A program made the position numbers and the translations under genes. 64,000 nucleotides of DNA from a virus, in IMG/VR virus record IMGVR_UViG_3300018984_000002, positions 1 to 64,000 of that record. The stretch is one strand, 5' to 3'. The notes under the pieces were generated by a model. The model was not told the origin of the DNA and ran no database searches. It worked only from the letters and a program-made list of their open reading frames with translations. Positions 16,285-64,000 of this stretch are shown here, piece by piece (within the stretch, counting starts at the first letter, position 1; every line of letters begins with the position of its first letter).

Positions 16285-17202
16285 ATGTATTATTTATCAG
16301 ATATTAGTGAAGCACAGTTTGCAAGAAAAAAAGGATCTAAAGATAAAAGGAAAAGAAAAGGTAAATCGCTACTAAAAGGTGCAGCAATTGGAACATTGGC
16401 GTTAGGAGCTTTAGGGTTAGGTGCTTATGCATTAGCTAAAGGAAAAAGATTACCAATTAAAAATCAACCTATAACTGTTAACTCGCCAATTGACAAAATT
16501 CCTATTACTCCGGAAATGATAAAAGATCAAGAAAAAACAAAAACATATTTAAGACGCTCAAAACTTATGAGCAGAGAATTAAAACAAATGGGTAAGCCTA
16601 ATGTATCTAAAATTCAAACACAAAGAGACAGATTAAATAAAGCATTAAAAAAAGTAAGAAATGATCCAAAATTAAACACTGAAGCTAAAGTAAGAATAGA
16701 AAGTAAAATAAAAAAACGTATTAAGTCTAATCAACAATTACAAAGAACAGCTGCTTTAAATGCTGTTAAAAACAATGCAGATTATAGTTTATTTTTAGGG
16801 GATTATGTAGCACAATTTGCAAGGAAGAAAGGTAGTAAAGATAAAAAGAAAAGACAAAGTAAATTAGGTAAATTCCTTAATGGAGAGTTAAACGCTAAAA
16901 CTGGTAAACGTAATGTCACACTAAGAGAACCTGTTATTAAACGTGCTGCTGTAGGAGCCGGAGTTGGGGCAGCTGGTTTAAGTACTTTAGGTTTAACTAA
17001 AGGAATTGAACTAATAAAACAAGCTCCTCACTTAAATAAACAAGCAGCTAAAAGATTAATAATGGGTAATACCAAATTAGGTTTAATAGCAGGGGGAATA
17101 GTTGGAGGAACACTAGGAGCTGGTTTAGGAGTAGTAAAATATGTGGGTAGAAAAAATACTTTAAAAGATGTTAAGCGCTACGAAATAAAAGCTAAAAAAT
17201 AG
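16285..17202 (+). CDS. Cargo-family protein with two leader modules, 305 aa
   Basis: The N-terminus MYYLSDISEAQF is followed by A-R-K-K-G-S-K-D-K-R-K-R-K. The same module recurs inside as D-Y-V-A-Q-F (173-178) followed by A-R-K-K-G-S-K-D-K-K-K-R. Each module precedes hydrophobic glycine-rich segments (31-52; 218-235 and 262-284). Between them is a Lys-rich helical region. If the junctions are cut, one gene yields two packaged proteins, like a polyprotein. Its TAG stop is formed by the first bases of a dispersed repeat copy at 17201. Confidence 0.7.
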   Translation: MYYLSDISEAQFARKKGSKDKRKRKGKSLLKGAAIGTLALGALGLGAYALAKGKRLPIKNQPITVNSPIDKIPITPEMIKDQEKTKTYLRRSKLMSRELKQMGKPNVSKIQTQRDRLNKALKKVRNDPKLNTEAKVRIESKIKKRIKSNQQLQRTAALNAVKNNADYSLFLGDYVAQFARKKGSKDKKKRQSKLGKFLNGELNAKTGKRNVTLREPVIKRAAVGAGVGAAGLSTLGLTKGIELIKQAPHLNKQAAKRLIMGNTKLGLIAGGIVGGTLGAGLGVVKYVGRKNTLKDVKRYEIKAKK

Positions 17203-17260
17203 TCCGAAATAATAAGGGTTTAGCTACCAATTAAACTGTTACCCCTTATATTTTCGGACT
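17201..17260. repeat. Inverted pair of the dispersed element forming a long hairpin
   Basis: AGTCCGAAATAATAAGGG (17201-17218) faces CCCTTATATTTTCGGACT (17243-17260), with two mismatches in an 18-bp stem and a 24-base loop. It lies between the convergent cargo gene and HU-like gene and may serve as a terminator for both. Confidence 0.85.
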
Positions 17261-22596: not shown

Positions 22597-22994
22597 AAAC
22601 CCTATTTATTTCGGACATAGATATATTATTTTCTAGACCTAAAGGAAGCAAAGACAAAACCCCTCGTAAAAAAAGAATCGGGTTAGGTTCAGTGTTGGCA
22701 GGCAGTGCAGTTGCAGGTGGAACTAGAGGTGCTTTGGTTGCACATTTAAAAATGAGAAAAGGATTTAATTTAGTCTTAGCTAATAATGAAGATAATTTTA
22801 AAAAAGCTATTAAGTCAGGAAATCCTCACGCAAATATAATTTATCCAAGTAAAGCCAAATTAAAACAAATTTACATCAAGAAGTTAAGCGGTAGAGCGGG
22901 AAAAAGTGCATTAACTAGTGCAGTATTATCTGGGGCAGGTTACGGAGCATACAACTTAATATCTAAGCATTTAGATAAGAAAAAAACAGAATGA
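22593..22994 (+). CDS. Cargo-family protein, 133 aa
   Basis: Starts in an ATGA overlap with the previous gene. The leader MKTLFISDIDILF is followed by S-R-P-K-G-S-K-D-K-T-P-R-K-K-R, the variant closest to AT-hook-like R-P-K-G-S-K motifs. Two glycine/alanine-rich segments (33-50 and 105-125) flank a middle region with no known fold. The FISD codons of the leader are a copy of the dispersed repeat (22602-22617). Confidence 0.7.
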   Translation: MKTLFISDIDILFSRPKGSKDKTPRKKRIGLGSVLAGSAVAGGTRGALVAHLKMRKGFNLVLANNEDNFKKAIKSGNPHANIIYPSKAKLKQIYIKKLSGRAGKSALTSAVLSGAGYGAYNLISKHLDKKKTE

Positions 22995-24199
22995 AAACAT
23001 TATTTATTTCAGATATAAACACCAATTTCGCGAGAGAAATAAAAGTTAAATCAAGTATACGCAAAGGAAAGGTTGTTAAAGCACATATTCGTAAAGGAAA
23101 AGATAAGAGATTAATTAGCAATGCCCAAGTTGCTGCTATAGGTAGCTCGGCTTTACTTGGTTTAGGGTTAGGTACTTACGGGATTTTAAAGGCAAGATAT
23201 AACTTAAATATAAAAATATCTGCCAAAGAAGCTTTAGAATTATCTAAAAAAATAAAACCTGCTCAATTATCTACAGCAGAGCTTAATCGTCCGAATATAA
23301 ATTATGCGGTTGCTGGGCTTAATTATGGTGCAGAAGCAAAAAGTAGTAGTCAGCTATCTAAATACATCCACAGCAAAGTAAAGGGACATACTATTGCTAT
23401 TGATACTAGAAGTATGAATAACCTTCCAGATACTCCACCTGGAAATAGTGCTAGACAACTATTTGACTTAACAACAACTGCGGCTAAAAAAGGCATTTTA
23501 AAAGGCTATAATCCAACAGCTAGAGAATTAGCGGCAACTGTCAAAGCCAATATGGATATGTATCCTGATAAAATACAAACTTTGCATGGACACAGTTCTG
23601 GGGGATACGTAACTAATGAAGCTATGCATATCCTAAAACAAATGGGTGTAGACACTAACAAATTAAAACAAGTAACTTATGGGGCAAATAGCCATGGTAT
23701 TTTACCACCAGCTAAAAATTCGCTACACATACTAGATAAAAACGATTGGCAAGCAGGACCATTTAAGTTTCCAGGTGCTGTAATTATTAATAAAAATAAT
23801 AAAAAGAAACCCGGTAAATTTGTGGATAGATATATGTCTGACCACGGAGCTTACCACTACTTATCTAATGATGAAAGTAATAAACTAGTTAAAGACTTTG
23901 TTATTCCTAAAGATTACGTAGCACCTAAACTAATTACAGTAAAACCTAAACCCACAGTAACTGTAAATAGTGAAAAACCTTTAGCAAATGAAATACAGCA
24001 AATAAAGCAAAGTGGTAAGAATCTAAAAGAAATCAAAGCTAAATACGATAAGGCAGCTAGTAACACCAATATCCCAGAAGACAAAAAAGAAGCAGCATTA
24101 AAATCTGCCAAAAAGAAACTAGTTAATGCACAAAATATTTATAACAATAGTAAAAAAGCTGTAAAAGATAAAGTAGATGCAAACCGCAAATCCAAATAA
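22991..24199 (+). CDS. Cargo-family protein with alpha/beta-hydrolase domain, 402 aa
   Basis: Leader MKTLFISDINTNF, then A-R-E and the second-type basic block (V-K-S-S-I-R-K-G-K-V-V-K-A). One hydrophobic segment follows (about 45-68). Residues about 100-300 look like a serine hydrolase: the nucleophile elbow L-H-G-H-S-S-G-G-Y near 197-205, a possible acid in H-I-L-D-K-N-D-W, and a possible catalytic His in S-D-H-G-A-Y-H-Y. It could be a lipase or esterase acting on host membrane or envelope during DNA entry. The Lys-rich C-terminus is a coiled coil. Overlaps its neighbour by ATGA. Confidence 0.6.
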   Translation: MKTLFISDINTNFAREIKVKSSIRKGKVVKAHIRKGKDKRLISNAQVAAIGSSALLGLGLGTYGILKARYNLNIKISAKEALELSKKIKPAQLSTAELNRPNINYAVAGLNYGAEAKSSSQLSKYIHSKVKGHTIAIDTRSMNNLPDTPPGNSARQLFDLTTTAAKKGILKGYNPTARELAATVKANMDMYPDKIQTLHGHSSGGYVTNEAMHILKQMGVDTNKLKQVTYGANSHGILPPAKNSLHILDKNDWQAGPFKFPGAVIINKNNKKKPGKFVDRYMSDHGAYHYLSNDESNKLVKDFVIPKDYVAPKLITVKPKPTVTVNSEKPLANEIQQIKQSGKNLKEIKAKYDKAASNTNIPEDKKEAALKSAKKKLVNAQNIYNNSKKAVKDKVDANRKSK

Positions 24200-24204
24200 T
24201 AAAA

Positions 24205-24433
24205 TTAGTGTATGTATTTAGCTATTGTTGTATTTGTTATTTGCACTATTTGGGTGACACCCAACTTAAGACTATTATTTTCGGACTCCTAAAACATATT
24301 GGCTATAAACATTAGGGTATTTATCTTTAATTTGTTTTGCTAAACCATCTCCCATTACACCTTTTAAATTAACTTGATGTGCAATTAAGCCTTTTGTTAT
24401 GTCTAATAAATCTCCATTTATAACATTAAGCAT
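24205..24433 (-). pseudogene. Macro-domain gene broken by a dispersed-repeat copy
   Basis: ATG at 24433 overlaps the stop of the XRE-like gene (TAATG). The first fragment, 52 codons to the TAA at 24275, shows I-N-G-D-L-L, then I-A-H-Q-V-N-L-K-G-V-M-G-D-G-L-A-K-Q-I-K and Y-P-N-V-Y-S-Q-Y, the N-terminal half of an ADP-ribose-binding macro domain (Poa1-like). The repeat copy at 24272-24289 supplies the stop. Past it, in another frame, the minus strand reads K-L-G-V-T-Q-I-V-Q-I-T, matching the next macro strand (L-G-x-V-Q-x-V), before a stop at 24205. The rest of the domain is missing. Confidence 0.7.
24272..24289 (-). repeat. Dispersed AGTCCGAAA element inside the macro-domain gene
   Basis: CTATTATTTTCGGACTCC, exact consensus, located at the break between the two macro-domain fragments. 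Confidence 0.85.
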
Positions 24434-24678
24434 TATCTATCTTTACCTTCATCATCAAAGTTACTTAAAAAATACATAGGACTTACATTTAACAACTTAC
24501 TGAAATAAATAAGATTATCTATAGTCAAATTACGTTTACCTGTTTCTAGTAAACTTAAACCACCTTGGTTATACCCAGATATTCTGCTAAATTCTCCCTG
24601 AGAATAACCACATTTCTCTCTGGCTTTTTTAAGCTTAATTCCCACTCTTTTGTTTAAGCTTATTTGTTTTTTATACAT
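24433..24678 (-). CDS. XRE-family helix-turn-helix regulator
   Basis: 81 residues, the size of a minimal Cro/C1-type repressor. The HTH is L-K-K-A-R-E-K-C-G-Y-S-Q-G-E-F-S-R-I-S-G, then L-S-L-L-E-T-G-K-R-N and F-S-K-L-L-N-V, all standard positions. It lies divergently from the prohead protease gene with about 70 bases between, so it may bind there. The macro-domain remnant follows in the same operon. Confidence 0.85.
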   Translation of the reverse strand: MYKKQISLNKRVGIKLKKAREKCGYSQGEFSRISGYNQGGLSLLETGKRNLTIDNLIYFSKLLNVSPMYFLSNFDDEGKDR

Positions 24679-24751
24679 TGCAGCAAGTAATTAAGTATCC
24701 TTATTTTAATATATCTGTGTTTAGTATTTAGGATATATAGTGAATTAAATT

Positions 24752-26011
24752 ATGACTACACGCACAAGTAAAAAAAGAAATATTAATAATACAGTGCCAG
24801 TCACACATTTTGAGGCACAACCATTATCTGCCGAATTTAAGGAAGCAGATGGACATATTCAGACTAGTGCGTTGATATTAGTCGAAGGCGAACATATTGA
24901 CAGTAAACAACGTAAGCATATTTTCTCAGCAGAGAGAATTCAAAAAATAGCAGACAATACAAATCGCTTACTACAAATGGGTACACGAGTACCTTTTTTA
25001 GCTGATCATATTAAGGCTCAAGACAAAACTTATGGTGATTTAGATGGCTCTATCGAAACTCGTGTAATTACACCAGAAGATATTGGAGATTCTAGATACA
25101 ATCATTTAGTAGGAAAATTTGGTGCTTTTGCTAATCAAATAACAATTAAATCCCGGCAAGCCATAGAACAGTACAGAGATAAGCTACTATCAACTATTAG
25201 TCCTGGTATAGATATTGTTTCGGACTGTATTAGAGAAATTAGTGCAACAAGTACACCAGCAATTGTTGGTCTAAGACTATTTAAAGGTCATGATGCTGGA
25301 TTAGCTACATTTGCTTTATCGTTTGACGAACTAGAAAATAGTGACGATCAAGTAGATCAAGTAAAACAGCAATACGACGAACTTACTGAGGATTTGTGGT
25401 TGGTTTTGGCAAGTATTCTTACTGCAACTGACGAAGCACTAAATGGTCAAGATCAAAGTCAATTAATGGAAAAAGCATTAGATGATTTTGAAACTCGACT
25501 GTTAGAAGTATTAGGTGTACAACCTGAAGACGAAGAATCGGAGCAACAACCTACAACACCAGCTCAAGAAGACACCAAAGCTCAACAAAGTGCTGGTATG
25601 CCAAGGACACTATCTCAACGTGGTAGTCAGGCACAATACAGTCTGCCAGAATCAAACCAAGTATTAGCAGCTTTTACTTTGGATGAGATGGAAAAGTTGG
25701 CTGAGTTTGGTATAGGAAGTGCATTTAAAACAGCACGGGCAGCTTTAGGAGGTGCTGCTAAAAAAGTAGCTACTGAAGCTAGCAAAACTAAAAATATGTC
25801 TAAATTAGGTTTTGGTATTTCCAAAGCCAAAGCCTCTCTGTCAGGAAAAGGTAGACTGAAATCTAATCTAGCTGGTATTGGTGGTGCGGCTAAAGCGGCT
25901 TATGGTACTACTGGTGGTAAAATTGCTGCTGGTGGTTTAGGTGTAGCCGCAGTAGGAGGAACAGCCATGGGAGTAAATAAACTACGTAAACCCAAAAGAC
26001 CCAAATTTTAA
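24752..26011 (+). CDS. Prohead (capsid maturation) protease with cargo-like tail, 419 aa
   Basis: Residues 30-165 resemble Mu gpI-type prohead proteases. They have F-L-A-D-H-I with His86, an alternating strand region, and the serine-containing L-L-S-T-I-S-P-G-I (145-153), the equivalent of the K-x-x-S-I-S-P-x-I motif of the assemblin-like fold. It would cut scaffold and head proteins during maturation. The protein itself contains candidate cut sites L-S-A-E-F29, L-A-T-F187, L-A-A-F308 and L-A-E-F319. After the last site comes a basic glycine/alanine-rich tail of 100 residues like that of the cargo proteins. A maturation role fits its place upstream of the capsid gene. Confidence 0.75.
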   Translation: MTTRTSKKRNINNTVPVTHFEAQPLSAEFKEADGHIQTSALILVEGEHIDSKQRKHIFSAERIQKIADNTNRLLQMGTRVPFLADHIKAQDKTYGDLDGSIETRVITPEDIGDSRYNHLVGKFGAFANQITIKSRQAIEQYRDKLLSTISPGIDIVSDCIREISATSTPAIVGLRLFKGHDAGLATFALSFDELENSDDQVDQVKQQYDELTEDLWLVLASILTATDEALNGQDQSQLMEKALDDFETRLLEVLGVQPEDEESEQQPTTPAQEDTKAQQSAGMPRTLSQRGSQAQYSLPESNQVLAAFTLDEMEKLAEFGIGSAFKTARAALGGAAKKVATEASKTKNMSKLGFGISKAKASLSGKGRLKSNLAGIGGAAKAAYGTTGGKIAAGGLGVAAVGGTAMGVNKLRKPKRPKF

Positions 26012-36149: not shown

Positions 36150-36509
36150 ATGAACAAACAACTAGATACAACTAAACCTATTATTCTTACTCGTTCTTTT
36201 CATAATTCTAGAGGTAATTATTACCCCGCTAAACAAACACCTTACTATCCAGGTGAAATTACTACAGATGCTTGGGAATTTCAACACAGTATTCAATACA
36301 CAGAACAAGTAAAAGTAGAGTCCGAAAATAAGGCTTTAGTACCGGAGCCTGATGTTATTATTACTAATAAACCACAAGTTGAAGTTTTTGTAGAGCCAGA
36401 GCCAAAACCAACTATTGATTTAGAAATAACAGAACCAAGTGAAGTTCGGGAATTAACACCGTCTGGTAATAAAACAATTAAAGCCAAAGTAATTAAGCAC
36501 TCTAACTAA
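36150..36509 (+). CDS. Hypothetical virion-region protein, 119 aa
   Basis: Start at ATG 36150 (an upstream in-frame ATG at 36117 adds 11 residues). The N-terminal half is Tyr/Pro-rich (G-N-Y-Y-P-A-K-Q-T-P-Y-Y-P-G-E-I); the rest is a Pro/Glu-rich linker (V-E-P-E-P-K-P-T-I). A dispersed-repeat copy encodes E-S-E-N-K within it. A terminator follows. Function unknown; the composition suits a flexible structural linker. Confidence 0.6.
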   Translation: MNKQLDTTKPIILTRSFHNSRGNYYPAKQTPYYPGEITTDAWEFQHSIQYTEQVKVESENKALVPEPDVIITNKPQVEVFVEPEPKPTIDLEITEPSEVRELTPSGNKTIKAKVIKHSN

Positions 36510-37748: not shown

Positions 37749-38747
37749 ATGCAAGGAACATATATTTACTGCTTAAAAGATCCTGTAGATTTTTCTATTA
37801 AATATATAGGCAAAAGCAATAATCCCAAAGATAGATACGTTAATCATATATCTGAAGCTCGTACAAACAAAGGAATTAATTCCGAGAAAGATAAATGGAT
37901 ACAAAACTTGCTCGGTAAAAATTTAGCACCAACACTAGAAGTAGTTGAAGAAGTTACTTTTGATAACTGGGAAGAGAAAGAAAGATATTGGATAAAAAAA
38001 TATAAAGGAGAAAATCAACCTTTATTAAATAAAGCGTTAGGTGGATATGGTAGTTTTGCTTGTCTTAAAGGTAAAACATCCAAATATATTAAAGTAACTT
38101 TTGCTAAAGATAAAACAAAATATCCTTGGCTTGTCCAGTTTCACTTACCAAATAAAGATAAAGTAGTTCATGTAGGACACTTTGCTACAGAAATAGAAGC
38201 GGCAAAAATAGCTGACTCATTATATCTTTACTACTACGGAGAAACACCAAATAAAGAATTATATCCAGATGATTTTAATGAACAATGCAGTGGTATTTAT
38301 CCTATTAGTTTTAAAGATATTAAAGAACAACTAAAACAACGAGAACTAGATGACCGTCCAGAATATCTTATTTACTACGACAAATTTGCTAAACGTTGGA
38401 TAGCTCATAAGACGGTTATTGGTCGTAGTAATGGTATTCGCAGACATAACATTACTATTGAAGAGGCTATTACTTTAGCTGAATCTTGGTTTAACAGAGT
38501 CCCTAATCAACAGGAGATAGAAGTTATTAAACAACAAATATTAAACAATCAAAATAAACAATCCTCTAAATACAAAGGAGTTAGTTTCAAAAAAGATGGA
38601 CGTTATTACGTAGAAACTCGTGTTAAAGGAAAACGGTATTATGGTGGTGCTTTTTTAAACGAAATAGATGCAGCTCTTGCATATAATAAATTAGTTCTAG
38701 AGAATAATCTAAATAAAGAATTAAATGTAATAAATACAGCTAACTAA
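37749..38747 (+). CDS. Second GIY-YIG homing endonuclease, 332 aa
   Basis: The N-terminus has T-Y-I-Y-C-L-K-D (4-11) and K-Y-I-G-K-S (near 20-25), the GIY-YIG core, then R-Y-V-N-H-I. The middle (110-180) and the end (275-325) contain AP2-like DNA-binding repeats: S-K-Y-I-K-V-T, V-G-H-F-A-T-E-I-E-A-A-K, and S-K-Y-K-G-V-S-F-K-K-D-G-R-Y-Y-V to L-N-E-I-D-A-A-L-A-Y-N. It is related to the gene at 30041 but clearly diverged, so the two probably have different target sites. Confidence 0.87.
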   Translation: MQGTYIYCLKDPVDFSIKYIGKSNNPKDRYVNHISEARTNKGINSEKDKWIQNLLGKNLAPTLEVVEEVTFDNWEEKERYWIKKYKGENQPLLNKALGGYGSFACLKGKTSKYIKVTFAKDKTKYPWLVQFHLPNKDKVVHVGHFATEIEAAKIADSLYLYYYGETPNKELYPDDFNEQCSGIYPISFKDIKEQLKQRELDDRPEYLIYYDKFAKRWIAHKTVIGRSNGIRRHNITIEEAITLAESWFNRVPNQQEIEVIKQQILNNQNKQSSKYKGVSFKKDGRYYVETRVKGKRYYGGAFLNEIDAALAYNKLVLENNLNKELNVINTAN

Positions 38748-38767
38748 AAAAAAACAATCATAAAGCG

Positions 38768-38804
38768 TTAAAAGACTTAGTTGAAATATAACTGAGTCTT
38801 TTAA
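38768..38804 (+). terminator. Rho-independent terminator
   Basis: TTAAAAGACTTAGTT (38768-38782) pairs with AACTGAGTCTTTTAA (38790-38804), one G-U pair. Ends the second GIY-YIG gene. Confidence 0.85.
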
Positions 38805-38814
38805 TATTCCACAA

Positions 38815-38831
38815 GAGTCCGAAATAATAAG
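38815..38831 (+). repeat. Dispersed AGTCCGAAA element, intergenic copy
   Basis: GAGTCCGAAATAATAAG between the terminator and the connector gene. Confidence 0.87.
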
Positions 38832-53619: not shown

Positions 53620-53728
53620 ATTGCTACCTAGTTGATAAAGTTATGCTATCATAAAACAAGCCACAAGAGCTAGTGATTAAACAACTCTTATGGCTAAAGT
53701 AAAACAATTCACTTTGATACATTATATC

Positions 53729-54451
53729 ATGTTTGAAATTCAAAATATTGACGGAGAGTTAGTTGTTGATTCTCGTTTGATTGCTCAAGAGTTTGGCATA
53801 CTGCATAATTCGCTTAAAGACACAATCAATGACAATGCAACAGATATAGAAGAAGATTTTGGTGTCATCCGTCGTGAATCCAAACCTTCTTTTACGTCAA
53901 ATCAAAATGAAACAGTATATTTTCTTACTGAGGATCAAGCGACATATATAATGACTCTTTCCAGAAATACTCCCCAAGTTAAAAAAGCTAAACGAAATTT
54001 GGTTCTTGCATTCACCAAAGCTAAGAAAATTATTCAAGATCAACAAATTGACATGAAAACAGTGTTAGGAATGCTACAAGGTATGCAGGATAAACTAACC
54101 CAACAAGAACAAACTATGCTACAGCTCACAGCCCGTACACAGCGGCTAGATGAACTCGAACAACAAGAACGTAGTTTTGGTCAAGCCGCACAAATACATT
54201 CTGGTTGTGCAGAAGTGCTAGTAGATCAAATGGAAAATGCTATTGACGATCAGCAAATGACTGCTATTGAATTTACACGTTATGCAGGTATAGATTCTAG
54301 TTACGCTCGTAAAATTGCCCGTACTGCAAGTGCATTTGAGAAATGTGGAAAAGGAATTGAAAGATGTCCGAAACAATATGGCACTAATCACTTATTGCTT
54401 GAAATGCGTTATTTAAAACAAGCAGCTAAAGTTGTTTTAAAACTAAATTAA
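53729..54451 (+). CDS. rha: Rha-family phage regulatory protein, 240 aa
   Basis: Start at ATG 53729; a longer frame begins at 53690. The N-terminal domain has the Rha pattern: D-S-R-L-I-A-Q-E-F-G-I-L-H, then Y-F-L-T-E-D-Q-A-T-Y-I-M-T-L-S-R-N-T-P-Q-V and K-R-N-L-V-L-A-F. Then a coiled coil (about 125-150) and a C-terminal domain with C-P-K-Q-Y-G. Rha proteins control lysogeny-linked or host-specific infection. It is the first gene of the right plus-strand block. Confidence 0.85.
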   Translation: MFEIQNIDGELVVDSRLIAQEFGILHNSLKDTINDNATDIEEDFGVIRRESKPSFTSNQNETVYFLTEDQATYIMTLSRNTPQVKKAKRNLVLAFTKAKKIIQDQQIDMKTVLGMLQGMQDKLTQQEQTMLQLTARTQRLDELEQQERSFGQAAQIHSGCAEVLVDQMENAIDDQQMTAIEFTRYAGIDSSYARKIARTASAFEKCGKGIERCPKQYGTNHLLLEMRYLKQAAKVVLKLN

Positions 54452-56444: not shown

Positions 56445-59400
56445 ATGTCACAGTTGGCTGCTGGAATAAATGAAATTGGAATGCCAGATCCATCTCAATT
56501 AGATGGGTTAGGAAAAGCAGTACAATCATACAATCAACAGATTATCAAACTGCAAACAACACAAGCAGCCGCACAAGCTAGTTTTTGGGGCATACAAAAA
56601 GCCACTGAAGCTGCTAGCAAAACATTTGCAAGTAGTGTACCTACCATAAAAACTTCAGCAGAAGTATTTGAAAAGCTACAAATAAGTACTGGAAACTTGG
56701 GAAAAGTACTGCAAAAAGGATTTGAGGTAGGACAGATATTAAAAGTATTTAATATCTTACAAGAAGGTGCAATCAAAATGATTGCCCAATTTGATAGAAT
56801 CCCGCAAGCATTATCTTTAATGAATGCTAGTGGAGTAAGCACAGGAGTTATAGATGAATTTAGTCAAATTACTGAAGCACTTAAATTAAACGGAGCAGCC
56901 ATAGACCAATTTAGTTTAAATGCAGTTGCACGTTTTAATGAATTTAATGCTGGTCTTACTAGAGTTCAAACTTTATTTACAAAAGAAAGCGGTTTTAATG
57001 TTGAAAAATATGGAGAAGATCTACAAAAATTAGTTGATGGTCCACTTAAAAATAGTATTACAAGTATTGAAGCACTTGATGGTGCATACAACGCTATTTC
57101 GGCAGGTTTCACTAAAGCAGCAGACTCACAAGCTGTAATGACAGCAGGTTTGAAGTTAGCTAAAGCTGGTGGCGCAGATAGTGCAGACGTAATGCGATTA
57201 CTAGGTGCAACACTAAACGCTTACGGTAAAAGTGCTAGTGAAGCTGGCAAGGTTGGCGCACAGCTTAACCTGATTGTACAGAAAGGTATTACTACCATCC
57301 CGGAATTAGCTGGTGGTTTCGCTGAGACTGCTACTACAGCTAAAAGTGCTGGAGTATCCCTCGAAGATTTATCAGCCGCTGTGGCAGTATTAACCACTAA
57401 AGGTAATAGTACTCCCAGTGCTTTAACTGGTATTGAATCTATTTCACGTAACATTATTGCCAAAACACCTGAAGCAACTAAAGCATTAGAAGGATTAGTA
57501 GACGCCGCAGGTAAACCAGTTAAGTTTGATATTACCGAAATAAAAGCAGATGGTTTAGCTAAATCACTTCAGCGATTAAATCAAGCTGTTGGTGGCAACG
57601 TTGTCAAACTAAAAGAGATTATTCCTGAATCGAGAGCTTATTCAACTGCATTAGCGTTAATGCAAAATAACTCTAAAGATTTAGCTGATATTAGTTTGCA
57701 AATGGGTCAAACAACAGCTAAAGCATTAGACGAAGTATTTGGTCAACAAATTGCACAGAAAAGTGAAAAGTTTGTGCAAATTGTAAATCGATTTGGCGAA
57801 GTAATGATTAAGTTAGGTAAAAGCCTAACACCTGCATTTGAAAGTGGACTTAAAGTATTAGACACCGTATCAGAAACTATCGCTAAAATTCCAGATGGCG
57901 TAAAAGAAAATATTGCACAATTTTTATTAGCAGGTTTAGCATTTAAACAAACTACTGGGGCTGTTGGTGTATTCACAGCCACACTAGTTAAAGCCTTTTT
58001 AGCATACCAAGGCTTTCGTTTAAGTACGATGGCTTTTAATGGCGAATTATTTAAACAAATAGATATTATTGGAAAACTGTATAAAGCAAACGCAGGATTA
58101 TTGCCTGTTGCACTTCAATTATTTGGTGTAGACCAACAACGTATTTTAGCTGAAAAAGATTTATTGGTTGGCGGTGAAAAAAATGTAGTAGTAACTAAAA
58201 CTAGAGTACAAGCTGCAAAAGAATTAGCTACTGAAAAGAAAGATTTAGTAGGCGCATTAAAAACACTGATTGGTTTAGATCGCGAAGCATTAATTGTTTC
58301 GAGCAGCGTAGCTAAAAGTTACGACGAACAAGTAGCTGCCATACAACCACTTGTTGATTTAAATAAGCGTGTTAAAAAATCACGCGAAGAAGCAACTAAA
58401 GCTAATAGTGATTTTGTCAAAGCAGAAGAAACACTAAATAGTAAGCGGGAAAAGTTTAGTCAACTAGAAGAAGAATTACTAAAGAAGAAAGAAGCACAAA
58501 AACAACTACAAGAAGAAGCTAGTAAATTACTACAAAGCAAAGATACTACGCCAGAAGTCCGAAAACAAGTAGTAGAAAAAGTAGAAACAATTAAAAGCGA
58601 TGTTGGTAAGTCTGAAACTGAACGGTTAATTCGGCTTAAAGAAATTCAACGACAAGAAGAGTTAGTTGGGAAAGCAAAAAATAAAGTAGCGGAAACAACT
58701 AAAAAAGAAGCAGACACAGTTGCTCAAGTTACTAAAGACCAACTAGAACTAGTATCTGCTCGTCGTAATGCTGCCGCTTTAGCCCAAAAAGCTAAAGAAG
58801 CTGAAACATTAGCAGAGATTGCAAACACAGAAGCAAAAACAGCTAATGCCTTAGCAAGCAAAAGTGGTTTTAAAGATGTTGCATTAAACACAGCTGCTGA
58901 AGAAGCAAACACAATTGCTAAAACACAAAATGCAATAGCAAGTAAATCCAGGGTTGCGGCTACAGAAGCAGATATAGCAGTCCGAAAAATAAATACAGGA
59001 TTACTGCAATCAGAAGCAATCGCTGAAAATAAACTAATAGAAACAAAGTTATTAGGACTAAAAACTACTGTTGGTAATAATGCAATTACAAAACTATTTA
59101 CTACTAATATTTCGGACTTATTAAGTGACTTAAGTAAAACTGTAAGTACCACCCTTGGATTTACGACAGATAAATTTAAAGATTTCTTTGGTTTTCTAAG
59201 TCAAAAAAGTGGCAGTAAAGGATTCTTTGTTGGGCTGAAAGAAGATTTTGTATCTAACTTTAAAGAAATAAAGAAAAGTATAGAGAATCCTGTAGATAGC
59301 TTTAATAAACTAAAATCTGGAGCAATAGATAGTTTTAGTGCAATCACTGAAGCCAGTAAAAATTTAGGTACAGGTGGTAGTGGTTTCTTTAGTGGTTTAC

Positions 59401-62400
59401 TTACTAGTGCTACTGGATTTTTTGAGACTATTAAAAAAGGCACTAAAGATGTTGCGTTAGGGTTAGCCGATATTGCTGTAGGACTAAAAGATGGAGCAGT
59501 AGGAGCACTTAAGTCTGTAAAAGAAATGGAATTTTCTTTTGGAGGCTTAAAGAAAGCAATGAGTGGAGGATTAAGTGGTGTAGTTGGCTTGCTTACCACT
59601 GGGTTATCTGCGGCTATTGCAGGGGCAAGTACTGCCTTTGGCGTATTAGCTACTGCCGCTAAATTTGCATGGGCTGCTGTAAGTGGTCCAATGGCTCCAT
59701 TGTTATTAGTGTTAGGAGCTGTGACAGCTGGAGTAGCGTTACTTTATGACAAATTCTTTGGTTTCGGTAAAGCAGCAGATAATTTAAATAAAGAATTTGA
59801 AAATATCAGCAAAGAAACATCTAAGTCTTTAGAAGAAGTAGATAAAACTTTTGAGGCAACAGCTAAAGCCGCTGATGAAACTTTGCTTAGTTCTTTTAAA
59901 AAACTAGGTGAAGAAGCTCCTAAATCAGTCTTAGGTATTGAAGATTCTATTAAGCCTCTCAAGAATGAAATAGAAATACAAAAAGGAGCTTTTGGTAGTC
60001 TTTTAGATATGATTAAAAATGGTTTTAAAGACCCACTTAAAGCTATTAAAGATTTTATATTAAACATTACAGGACTAGGCAAAGCTATAGATGTAGTGAG
60101 TAGTGCTAGTAATAATCTAGGTGGATTTTTCAATAAAATAACAGACTTTATTAAAAAAATACCTTTAATTGGGGATGCTGTTGAATTACTTGAAAATGTC
60201 GGTAAAACTATTGGTGGTTTGGTAGATGGTGTCGGCAAATTCTTTGGGGGTATCAAAGAAGCTTATGAATTAGACCAGATAGTAGAACCTGTTAGTAAAC
60301 TGCGTAAAGCCGGAGAAGATTTAGCTACTGATCAATTACGTGCAAGTAAAGCTATTGGAGCATACAACAAAGGATTATTCCAAACCAAAGAACTAAATGA
60401 GTTAGTACTAAAAGGAAATAAATTAAGCACTGAACAAGTAGCTATTAAAACAGCTTTACTTGAAAAAGAATCAGCTGCAATGCAAAGGCTAGTAGATAGA
60501 GCTAATGCAGAAACAGGTGCTAACAACAAACGTATTGAAGAAGCTCAAAAGTTAGCTGATCAATATAAAAAAGTAACTAAAGATGCTAGTGGAAACGAAG
60601 TAGAAGATTTAAAAAATCAGGATATAAGGCGTGTAAAACTACTCGAAGAAATAGAGATCATTGAAGCTAAAAACAAAAAGCTACAAGACTCTGTTTCTCA
60701 AGCAAAAGAAGAACTTCAACTAGTAATTAAATTACAACAAGAGCGAGAAAGACTGCAAGAACGAGTCCGAAATAATAAGGGAGATGATTTAGATCCTACC
60801 AAAGGTGACGTAGCAGGTGAGAACTACATCAAAAACTCTCTAAATCGGGGCTTACAGGCTAGCACAGAAGAGTTGGATAATTACTCAAAGAAAGTACAAG
60901 CAGTATTAGATGGCACGGGTAAGTACCTAGAAACCACCACAGACAAGACGGGTAATAAGATTACTACCCTGACAAAGATCAAGCTCACAGACTTAGAAGG
61001 AGCAACAGACAAGCTTGACGAGAAAGTCATGGGGGCTGTTGGAGCTGTAGACGCACTGTTTGAACAAGGATATATTGACAGTGACAAAGCTGCTGAAAAG
61101 ATTACAGAGACATTAGAGAAGACGGTTACCGGATCTACTGGTAAGATACAAAAGCTTAAAGAACTGTTAGACCCACAAACTCAAATCGACTTAATTAATC
61201 AAGTAGTTGACTATCAACAAAAAGCAAGTCAAAGTCAAATCGGCTTAAAAACCAAAGAAATAGAAAAACTGAAATCATTAGACGAAGCACGTTTAGCTAA
61301 CTCTAGTGAAGTAGCAAAAAATATACGTAAGATTGAAGCTGAACAAATGGAGATTCAGCGCACTACGCTTGAAAAACAAATAGCGGCTTTAGTAAATTCA
61401 AAGCAAGGTAGTCCACAAAAGATCAAAGAATTGACAGCAGACCTTGAAAAACTAAAGTCAGATCAAAAAGGTCAACAAATAAGAAATAGTGTTAGTGACG
61501 CTAACCAAGAAAACAATGATAGAAAACAACAGTTAGATAAAGACTTAGAACTACAAAAAACGTATGAAGCAGCAAAAATAGGCAGTGTAGAAGCAACTAG
61601 TAAAAAGATTCGCCAGATAGAAGAAGAACAATTAGGTATTCAAAGAAAGAATCTACAAAATGAAATAGACGTATTAACAGCAGCTGGAAGTGATCCTAAA
61701 AAAATAGCCGAACTACAAAAGAGTATGGAAAAACTCAATGTGGAATCTCGTGCTAAACAAATGAAAGATAAGATAGATGATGCTACAAAAGAAACAGAAG
61801 CCACAAGAGAAAAATTAGGTAATCAACTAGAACTAGAACGTACATTCCAACAAGCTCGTATTGGAGATAATGTTGAAACTACCAAAAAGATAAATCAGTT
61901 AGAACTACAACAACTCCAAGCTTCTAAATTAGCACTAGAAGCTAAAGTTAAAATAATGAAACAAACTGGCGTTGATCCTGAAGAGATTAAAAAAGTAGAA
62001 CAACAAATAACTTTAATTACAGCACAAGAAAGTGCTAAACGTATTACTAACATTCAGTCTGAAATGGCTGCAAGAGTAGCCAAAGTAAAACAAGCTACAG
62101 AAAAACAAATTAGCTTAGACGAATTAGCAAGACTTAAAGGTGAAAAGTCATTCAAAGATGCTAGTGATAATGCAATAAAATTACGTCAGGAAACCAATGC
62201 AAAAGAACAACAACTGTTATTAGAACAAATTAACCGTACTAAGTCTGCTGGTGGAAATACAGACGAATTACAAAAACAGTTAATTGATAAACAAATAGAG
62301 TATCAAAAAATACTTACTGAAAAAATACAAAAAGAAGTAGAACGCCGTAAACAGATACTTAGTAATAGTGTTAATGAACAAGTATTAGAACAAACTAAAT

Positions 62401-64000
62401 TACTTAATAGTTTGGACGCTCAGAGTAAGAGTTTGGAGTCCGAAAATAAGCTACAAGATAGTCGTAAATCCCTACTAGAAGCCCAAAACCAGTACCAAGT
62501 AGCTATGCTGCAGAACCAGCTTAAGACTACTAATGACGTGGTAGTAAGAGCTGATATAGAAAAACAAATTGCAGAACGTAATTTTAAAAATCTACAAGAC
62601 CAACAAAGTAGTGAATTAGCTTCCTTACAAGTACAAGAACAACAAAACAAACTTGCGGCTGAACGCGAACAGATTCAATTACGTTTAAGTAAGCTACAAA
62701 ATCAGTTAAGTCAAGATCAACTTAAATTAGACATTGAAACAGCTACTCGTACTCGCAGTAAAAGCGAAGAAGAAATAGTTGCTATGAACAATCAGTTAGC
62801 TACGCTGGCTGAACAAGGTAATGTATTAGAACAACAACAAGGTTTATTAGAAAAAAATAGTCAACAACAACAAGAAATTACAAAAAATAATCGACTACAA
62901 CTAGAATACAAACAACGTAGTGCTAGAGAGTCTGCAAGTATTGATTTAGAGTTGGCTAAAAATAAACAACAATTAGCTGTGTTTGAGAAGATGGCTCAGA
63001 CAGCTAAGATACGTGCAGATATTACTCAAACTGTTGCAGACATAGAACTTAAATCTGCAACTGCTATTGGTAAATTAAATGAAAATAGAACTAAACTATT
63101 AAACCAACAAAAAGAAATTATAGATGATTCTCTTAGTGCTAGTCAAAATAGTTACCAAATAGCTGCCGATCTTACTACTGACGAAAAAGAAAAAGCGCAA
63201 ATCCAAAAAGAAGCATTAATGGTACGCGCAGCCACTCTTGACAAACAACAAAGTATTGAAAAAGAGTTACTTGAGATACAGTTACAACAAAATAAACTAG
63301 CCCAAGAACGTCAAAAGATAGAAGCAGATATTGCTGTTATTCGTAAAAGTGCAGAACTACAAGCTGTTATCGCAGAAGACAAACGTATTCAAGCAGATAA
63401 AACTAAATCTAAAGAAGAAAAAGAAGCTAGTAGTGCAACAGTAGCGGCAAAACAAGTTGACGTGGCAGCAGCAAATTATGAACGAGACATCTTAACTAAA
63501 CAACAAGAACTGACCAAAAAAGACGAAGAAATACAAAGACGTAAATTAAGTAATAAACAATTTCAAGAAACTCAAGGACTACAAGTTGAGTTAGCTAAAT
63601 CTACTGAAGATAAAAACGACGATATTGTAGTACGTAATAATGCATTAGCTAATGCACGTAGTAACGCCAGTTTGGTGTCAGATACTCCTGTTAAAGTAGC
63701 GAACACAGAGTTACCTAAATTTGCCGATTATATAAAGCAATTAAATATAAGCTTACCTAAATTAAGTGATTTAACTCAACAATCTGTTAAGGAGGTAAGT
63801 AACAATACTAGTAGTGTCCGAAATAATAATAGTACTAGTAATGTAAATAACAATAGTGCAGTTAAACAAGGGGATATAAAAGTTGATGCCCCAATTACTA
63901 TTAATATTGAAAAAGCTAAAGATAACGATATTGCAGTAGAAACAGGTAGTGAAGTTTACAATGTACTGTATGATGTATTCCGTAAAGTGGAACAAAGAGT
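56445..64000 (+). CDS. Tape measure protein, 5' part (at least 2518 aa)
   Basis: One open frame from ATG 56445 to the end of the window, 2518 codons with no stop. The N-terminal part (about 60-430) resembles phage tail tape measure domains (TP901-type): A-L-K-L-A-K-A-G-G-A-D, L-L-G-A-T-L-N-A-Y-G-K, L-V-Q-K-G-I-T-T-I-P-E-L-A and S-L-E-D-L-S-A-A-V-A. Near 1050-1105 is a hydrophobic stretch (A-I-A-G-A-S-T-A-F-G then P-M-A-P-L-L-L-V-L-G-A-V) fit for membrane passage. From about 1350 to 2400 it is almost pure Gln/Lys/Glu coiled coil. It sets tail length and guides DNA ejection. At the usual 0.15 nm per residue the visible part alone implies a tail over 370 nm. Several dispersed-repeat copies are read in frame. 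Confidence 0.9.
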   Translation, partial: MSQLAAGINEIGMPDPSQLDGLGKAVQSYNQQIIKLQTTQAAAQASFWGIQKATEAASKTFASSVPTIKTSAEVFEKLQISTGNLGKVLQKGFEVGQILKVFNILQEGAIKMIAQFDRIPQALSLMNASGVSTGVIDEFSQITEALKLNGAAIDQFSLNAVARFNEFNAGLTRVQTLFTKESGFNVEKYGEDLQKLVDGPLKNSITSIEALDGAYNAISAGFTKAADSQAVMTAGLKLAKAGGADSADVMRLLGATLNAYGKSASEAGKVGAQLNLIVQKGITTIPELAGGFAETATTAKSAGVSLEDLSAAVAVLTTKGNSTPSALTGIESISRNIIAKTPEATKALEGLVDAAGKPVKFDITEIKADGLAKSLQRLNQAVGGNVVKLKEIIPESRAYSTALALMQNNSKDLADISLQMGQTTAKALDEVFGQQIAQKSEKFVQIVNRFGEVMIKLGKSLTPAFESGLKVLDTVSETIAKIPDGVKENIAQFLLAGLAFKQTTGAVGVFTATLVKAFLAYQGFRLSTMAFNGELFKQIDIIGKLYKANAGLLPVALQLFGVDQQRILAEKDLLVGGEKNVVVTKTRVQAAKELATEKKDLVGALKTLIGLDREALIVSSSVAKSYDEQVAAIQPLVDLNKRVKKSREEATKANSDFVKAEETLNSKREKFSQLEEELLKKKEAQKQLQEEASKLLQSKDTTPEVRKQVVEKVETIKSDVGKSETERLIRLKEIQRQEELVGKAKNKVAETTKKEADTVAQVTKDQLELVSARRNAAALAQKAKEAETLAEIANTEAKTANALASKSGFKDVALNTAAEEANTIAKTQNAIASKSRVAATEADIAVRKINTGLLQSEAIAENKLIETKLLGLKTTVGNNAITKLFTTNISDLLSDLSKTVSTTLGFTTDKFKDFFGFLSQKSGSKGFFVGLKEDFVSNFKEIKKSIENPVDSFNKLKSGAIDSFSAITEASKNLGTGGSGFFSGLLTSATGFFETIKKGTKDVALGLADIAVGLKDGAVGALKSVKEMEFSFGGLKKAMSGGLSGVVGLLTTGLSAAIAGASTAFGVLATAAKFAWAAVSGPMAPLLLVLGAVTAGVALLYDKFFGFGKAADNLNKEFENISKETSKSLEEVDKTFEATAKAADETLLSSFKKLGEEAPKSVLGIEDSIKPLKNEIEIQKGAFGSLLDMIKNGFKDPLKAIKDFILNITGLGKAIDVVSSASNNLGGFFNKITDFIKKIPLIGDAVELLENVGKTIGGLVDGVGKFFGGIKEAYELDQIVEPVSKLRKAGEDLATDQLRASKAIGAYNKGLFQTKELNELVLKGNKLSTEQVAIKTALLEKESAAMQRLVDRANAETGANNKRIEEAQKLADQYKKVTKDASGNEVEDLKNQDIRRVKLLEEIEIIEAKNKKLQDSVSQAKEELQLVIKLQQERERLQERVRNNKGDDLDPTKGDVAGENYIKNSLNRGLQASTEELDNYSKKVQAVLDGTGKYLETTTDKTGNKITTLTKIKLTDLEGATDKLDEKVMGAVGAVDALFEQGYIDSDKAAEKITETLEKTVTGSTGKIQKLKELLDPQTQIDLINQVVDYQQKASQSQIGLKTKEIEKLKSLDEARLANSSEVAKNIRKIEAEQMEIQRTTLEKQIAALVNSKQGSPQKIKELTADLEKLKSDQKGQQIRNSVSDANQENNDRKQQLDKDLELQKTYEAAKIGSVEATSKKIRQIEEEQLGIQRKNLQNEIDVLTAAGSDPKKIAELQKSMEKLNVESRAKQMKDKIDDATKETEATREKLGNQLELERTFQQARIGDNVETTKKINQLELQQLQASKLALEAKVKIMKQTGVDPEEIKKVEQQITLITAQESAKRITNIQSEMAARVAKVKQATEKQISLDELARLKGEKSFKDASDNAIKLRQETNAKEQQLLLEQINRTKSAGGNTDELQKQLIDKQIEYQKILTEKIQKEVERRKQILSNSVNEQVLEQTKLLNSLDAQSKSLESENKLQDSRKSLLEAQNQYQVAMLQNQLKTTNDVVVRADIEKQIAERNFKNLQDQQSSELASLQVQEQQNKLAAEREQIQLRLSKLQNQLSQDQLKLDIETATRTRSKSEEEIVAMNNQLATLAEQGNVLEQQQGLLEKNSQQQQEITKNNRLQLEYKQRSARESASIDLELAKNKQQLAVFEKMAQTAKIRADITQTVADIELKSATAIGKLNENRTKLLNQQKEIIDDSLSASQNSYQIAADLTTDEKEKAQIQKEALMVRAATLDKQQSIEKELLEIQLQQNKLAQERQKIEADIAVIRKSAELQAVIAEDKRIQADKTKSKEEKEASSATVAAKQVDVAAANYERDILTKQQELTKKDEEIQRRKLSNKQFQETQGLQVELAKSTEDKNDDIVVRNNALANARSNASLVSDTPVKVANTELPKFADYIKQLNISLPKLSDLTQQSVKEVSNNTSSVRNNNSTSNVNNNSAVKQGDIKVDAPITINIEKAKDNDIAVETGSEVYNVLYDVFRKVEQR

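Follow-up and report, generated by a model that had tools for sequence, protein, structure and literature searches.

The window studied here, 64,000 nucleotides in all, makes up the first half of a virus record (G000) of 127,110 bases. On the minus strand of this window, a gene for an XRE-family (HTH_3) regulator of 81 amino acids (24433..24678; Pfam HTH_3, E=6.9e-11) is followed by a 52-codon ORF (24275-24433) whose ATG overlaps the TAA stop of the regulator gene as TAATG. The first 46 codons of this ORF (MLNVINGDLL...YPNVYSQY, 24296..24433, minus strand) encode the N-terminus of an ADP-ribose-binding macro domain. They match PHROG 335, annotated 'phosphatase' (E=1.8e-12), PDB entry 5m3i (E=2e-4) and 375 phage macro/Appr-1-p records (E<=0.01, best identity 56%), with matches in 199 IMG/VR stretches. 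Identity to intact phage macro proteins is 52-57%, and the N-terminal macro segment GDLL..HQVN..GVMG.G.A..I...P..Y is present. A sequence-only reading of this DNA had recognized a macro N-terminus on the minus strand ahead of a repeat and had described the gene as coupled to the XRE regulator; the former is borne out by these matches and the latter is real as an arrangement of the two genes.

Beyond the last conserved macro codon (Tyr) lie seven nucleotides (24289..24295, read directly on the minus strand) and then a plus-strand copy of a repeat motif, GACTATTATTTTCGGACTC (24270..24288), which includes TATTATTTTCGGACTC at 24273-24288 and sits, as the sequence-only reading had placed it, at the break in the macro gene. 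Past this copy and one frame on, the minus strand reads the next macro strand, LKLGVTQIVQIT; the frame-shifted downstream piece, SLKLGVTQIVQITNTTIAKYIH (24273-24208), does align with that strand of intact macro proteins, and it continues for about 20-22 residues before a stop. A complete macro domain of about 140-170 amino acids in a single frame is absent: the locus consists of the 52-codon ORF, a frame change, some 22 codons and a stop, and the remnant ends about 70-100 codons short of intact homologues, which are 142-173 amino acids long. Compared with the PHROG 335 phage macro (Appr-1-p processing) proteins, the remnant corresponds in its first 46 residues, in the next strand and in the invariant Tyr and Gly, whereas its frame is broken and its last 70-100 residues are missing.

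It is most improbable that this stretch is not a macro gene and that its downstream piece is a chance match. Pfam Macro alone does score the remnant weakly (E=0.11) and the downstream piece is short, but the first 46 residues carry the strong PHROG match and the invariant Tyr and Gly columns are kept at their natural spacing. A near-perfect 15-bp palindrome, TTGGGTGACACCCAA, lies beside the motif inside the remnant (24251-24265). The LGVTQ stretch is read from it, and its presence may be due to chance. On the plus strand a convergent neighbour gene (22991..24199), with a weak lipase-like match (Lipase_3, E=0.02), ends where it abuts the remnant.

The sequence-only reading took the break as evidence that the element, or a repair event that left it, had come after the gene, with the repeat introducing the stop; against an intact orthologue it expected a clean insertion or a replacement of about 10-15 residues. 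We compared the linker at this position with that of about 75 intact macro homologues (142-173 amino acids) from viral contigs, in which it is bounded by the invariant Tyr and the invariant Gly with 9-21 residues between them (median 13). In the remnant both invariant columns are kept and the spacer between them, repeat included, measures 34 nt (11.3 codons). Since this falls within the range of the intact homologues, nothing of the length of the repeat has been added at the locus, and a clean insertion is not supported.

Whether the repeat introduces the stop depends upon the frame considered. After the Tyr codon (24298-24296), the frame of the N-terminal piece enters the repeat and terminates as VLGVRK-stop, and for this piece the earlier statement stands. 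It fails for the downstream piece, in whose frame the repeat is open, reading E-S-E-N-N-S, and whose limiting stop is a TAG at 24291-24289, ahead of the repeat. Because the repeat is open and the bounding stop precedes it, a change of frame between the two macro pieces is required whatever the repeat did, and the break does not tell us that the element is younger than the gene or that it moved. The frame change is most simply placed at 24289-24295 or at the motif edge, since the stop found there is the one that bounds the downstream frame. At the macro locus taken alone, a replacement that brought in the motif and shifted the frame together is conceivable. The gene was decaying in any case, because its last 70-100 codons have also been lost; it is an ordinary decaying pseudogene.

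The relatives were examined at the same position. A 96% relative (G003) is identical to the window over 23901-24900 (1,000 bp) and therefore offers no empty site. In a distant relative, G001, the corresponding position has an XRE orthologue (53% identity) that no macro gene follows; an intact macro gene lies elsewhere in that genome. The nearest intact macro orthologues among viral contigs and plasmids (best 70% over 44 residues, with one record in the 60-80% band) are too distant to be suitable for an empty-site comparison.

The copy in the macro linker is one of many in this genome. The repeat has the consensus CCTTATTATTTCGGACT(C/A)TTA, and its core, TTTCGGAC, occurs 85 times in the 127 kb of G000 against 1.5 expected, and 101 times in the 111 kb of G001, where 84 G000 proteins have a match. 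The window alone holds 15 repeat sites with <=3 mismatches (0.94 expected) and 37 exact copies of TTCGGACT (0.86 expected). Near-matches are in graded excess from zero to three mismatches, and reversed controls show none. The motif was found in two independent genomes only. Scans with the major head protein and the terminase returned the same virus, the 96% relative, G001 and one remote terminase (28% identity), too few relatives for a family-wide survey. A search of 84,980 species genomes for the inverted-pair pattern (that is, for the paired form only) gave one stretch. The window is without any Rfam match, which speaks against a known RNA element, and since no tRNA was found a tRNA association was dropped.

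Such dense, dispersed copies, together with inverted pairs of hairpin potential and a copy located at the macro break, would fit a mobile mini-element of the MITE, REP or bypass type whose insertion disrupted the macro gene, and the sequence-only reading had judged the element probably mobile. The copies inside genes argue otherwise. We could align 55 of them to an orthologue in the other virus, G000 or G001, and 51 of these alignments were ungapped (93%, as against 94% at random positions). One of the 55, at 36319, coincides with a six-residue gap in the orthologue, which favours insertion. The one copy lost between close relatives over alignable sequence, also that at 36319, differs by two substitutions. 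Graded near-matches are typical of substitution, no length has been added at the macro locus, and the spacing of same-strand copies is even (see below). Among the G000 proteins scanned, which are part of the proteome, no transposase was seen. On the basis of the 55-copy alignment and the macro spacer length we rejected mobile insertion, and we consider a mobile mini-element quite improbable. Taken as a whole, what the sequence-only reading observed is partly confirmed and what it made of the observation is partly supported.

Two lines of evidence concern the persistence of copies. First, copies occur at the same codon in G000 and G001 (19903 and G001 38635; 30895 and G001 28132). Second, between G000 and G003 only 2 of 272 motif bases differ, compared with 970 of 26,768 other bases (p=0.005).

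About 60% of the core copies lie inside genes, and genic copies are not biased towards one strand (same/opposite strand, 23/28 and 25/36). In the gaps between divergent genes TTCGGACT is absent (0 against 7.0 expected, p=6e-4) and TTTCGGAC has one copy, in G001; these intergenic counts are approximate because a simple ORF method was used to call the genes. With neither an orientation bias nor TTCGGACT in divergent gaps, a promoter role was rejected.

The same distribution bears on whether the motif is a phage repressor or silencer site, of the stoperator or SPBRE/MrpR type, by which the genome would be shut down in lysogeny. There are likenesses. The stoperators of cluster A mycobacteriophages (PMC6550527, PMC9283540) are many sites over one phage genome, in L5 likewise asymmetric and scattered (PMC6550527); the SPBRE/MrpR sites of SPbeta are a phage-wide repeated element of about 15 bp (PMC10516654); and regulator-like genes (XRE, Rha, Bro-N) are present in our virus. 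Stoperators are, however, oriented with transcription (PMC6550527), whereas our motif is unbiased, and MrpR-bound SPBRE lies in promoter regions (PMC10516654), whereas our motif avoids divergent gaps and is frequent within genes, on both strands. Of the scanned proteins, none was identified as an integrase. A repressor site is thus an unlikely explanation, if not a negligible one.

Where two motifs lie less than 120 bp apart, they are arranged AGTCCGAA...TTCGGACT in 15 of 15 cases. The folding energies of these inverted pairs are -13 to -35 kcal/mol, and most of the pairs lie within 45 nt after stop codons. One pair (AGTCCGAA..TTCGGACT, 17201..17260) lies between convergent genes, and the orthologous gene end in G001 has one too. 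Orthologues have copies at their 3' ends in common more often than chance predicts (3 shared, p=0.017), which does not hold for copies at their 5' ends. Together with the avoidance of divergent gaps, these features would suit a transcription terminator or mRNA 3'-end hairpin, with lone copies as half-sites. Most copies, however, are single and asymmetric and cannot fold, and most lie within genes, in either direction. The tails of the pairs are mixed (CTTATTG, ATTACTT) and lack the regular U-tract that, behind a G+C-rich hairpin, marks an intrinsic terminator, and a terminator scan covering 16-26 kb made no call at the 17.2 kb pair, although a pair of this kind may fall outside the loop limit of 8 used in the scan. 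We therefore regard it as improbable that the motif as a whole is a terminator or 3'-end hairpin.

Copies on the same strand are evenly spaced. The coefficient of variation of same-strand spacing is 0.59-0.61, where chance gives 0.96-0.98 (p of about 0.001 or lower in each of four strand sets), and gaps of less than 500 bp number 4 where 33 are expected. A first test, on TTCGGACT with the strands merged, was not significant (0.84 versus 0.92); the even spacing was seen per strand with the better core, TTTCGGAC, which was chosen after that first look. Even spacing and the short-range exclusion of direct copies could in part reflect deletion between close direct repeats and not function.

In its statistics the motif resembles the uptake sequences of bacteria, or Chi, and is confined to one phage lineage. 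The strong excess, the presence on both strands, the gain by substitution and the inverted pairs by which uptake sequences are recognized are all found here. Like the DUS/USS and DUES of Neisseriaceae and Pasteurellaceae (PMC1939737, PMC2346458), the motif is short and asymmetric, is in large excess on both strands with unbiased orientation, occurs both in and between genes and forms inverted pairs as a minority; even spacing and an origin by point mutation have been reported for those sequences as well, and a graded excess of near-matches has been described for them (PMC1939737). In contrast to them, our motif belongs to a phage lineage and has another sequence, its paired form occurs in one stretch among about 85,000 species genomes, and the likeness is one of sequence statistics. 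Chi offers a second parallel. In lambdoid phages making use of host RecBCD, Chi is over-represented (PMC3784561), and in those without recombinases it is likewise a short asymmetric signal accumulated by selection. The median observed/expected ratio for Chi in such phages is, however, about 2-5 (PMC3784561), whereas for our motif it is above 50; our motif is also longer, and our phage encodes recombination-type genes (RuvC, PD-(D/E)XK nuclease, AAA_24). We found no closer phage-wide motif of this kind in the literature.

The explanation that we favour, and think probable, is that the macro remnant is a pseudogene whose linker happens to hold one copy of an independent, genome-wide DNA signal, kept by selection and read by a protein. 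It draws on what was observed: the number of copies, the absence of insertion, the indifference to strand, the scarcity in divergent gaps, the single geometry of the pairs, and the regular spacing and persistence of the copies. Under this explanation the reading frame of the macro gene would have been lost in the linker that follows the first third of the domain, and the gene's last 70-100 codons would have gone as well. Copies would be gained through point substitutions at places where they are tolerated, as in linkers, in SE[N/I] or ISD readings and in gaps after stops, and selection would then retain them. The copy in the macro linker most likely sat in frame as E-S-E-N-N-S and became a stop once the frame was lost upstream. 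The same reading recurs often in genic copies that oppose their gene (RESENK, LLESEN, VKVESENK, KSEIIS, GESEII). Inverted pairs behind genes may double as 3'-end hairpins.

A putative protein, encoded by phage or host, would read one copy in every 1-3 kb or so of each strand, and by analogy with uptake sequences and Chi such reading may give DNA belonging to the phage an advantage in replication, recombination or processing. Since G000 encodes RuvC-like, PD-(D/E)XK nuclease and AAA_24 proteins as well as a DNA polymerase III alpha, the motif could be linked to recombination or replication. More tentatively, the phage lineage might carry a self-recognition tag by which a phage enzyme tells its own DNA apart in replication, recombination or packaging; we see this as a possibility and not as the expected outcome. 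If it were true, the motif would be a viral counterpart, with its own private sequence, to uptake sequences or Chi; should a phage protein read it, this would amount to a viral tag for self-DNA. In either event the account of a gene disrupted by a mobile element gives way to a testable one, that of a selected private DNA signal in dozens of copies.

Several observations were made elsewhere in the genome. In the structural region many genes begin with common N-terminal modules (LFISD..., FARKKGSKDKKKR), in the window at 16285, 22593, 22991, 26036, 33180, 37263 and 39538; these are perhaps a sorting or capsid-targeting signal, and the DNA behind their LFISD part is motif-like. Three regulator-like proteins (Rha, Bro-N and one unassigned; window 53690-54451 and G000 73755-74483 and 116714-117430) have a similar C-terminal region and are possible candidate readers of the motif. 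A very long ORF of 2519 codons, which occupies 56445-64000 of the window and extends beyond it, carries five motif copies on both strands.

An endonuclease gene (window 37749-38816), with GIY-YIG and HNH-type PHROG matches, is absent from G003, and a motif copy stands at its boundary in both G000 and G003 despite their differing flanks. At G000 91385-93409 a Hint/LAGLIDADG segment splits an AAA_24 ATPase gene; the segment is probably an intein that carries a homing domain. Finally, two G000 ORFs (106237-107298 and 108701-109957) both match a single G001 protein (90043-93066), a ribonucleotide reductase, and the G000 gene looks as if it has been split by an insert.
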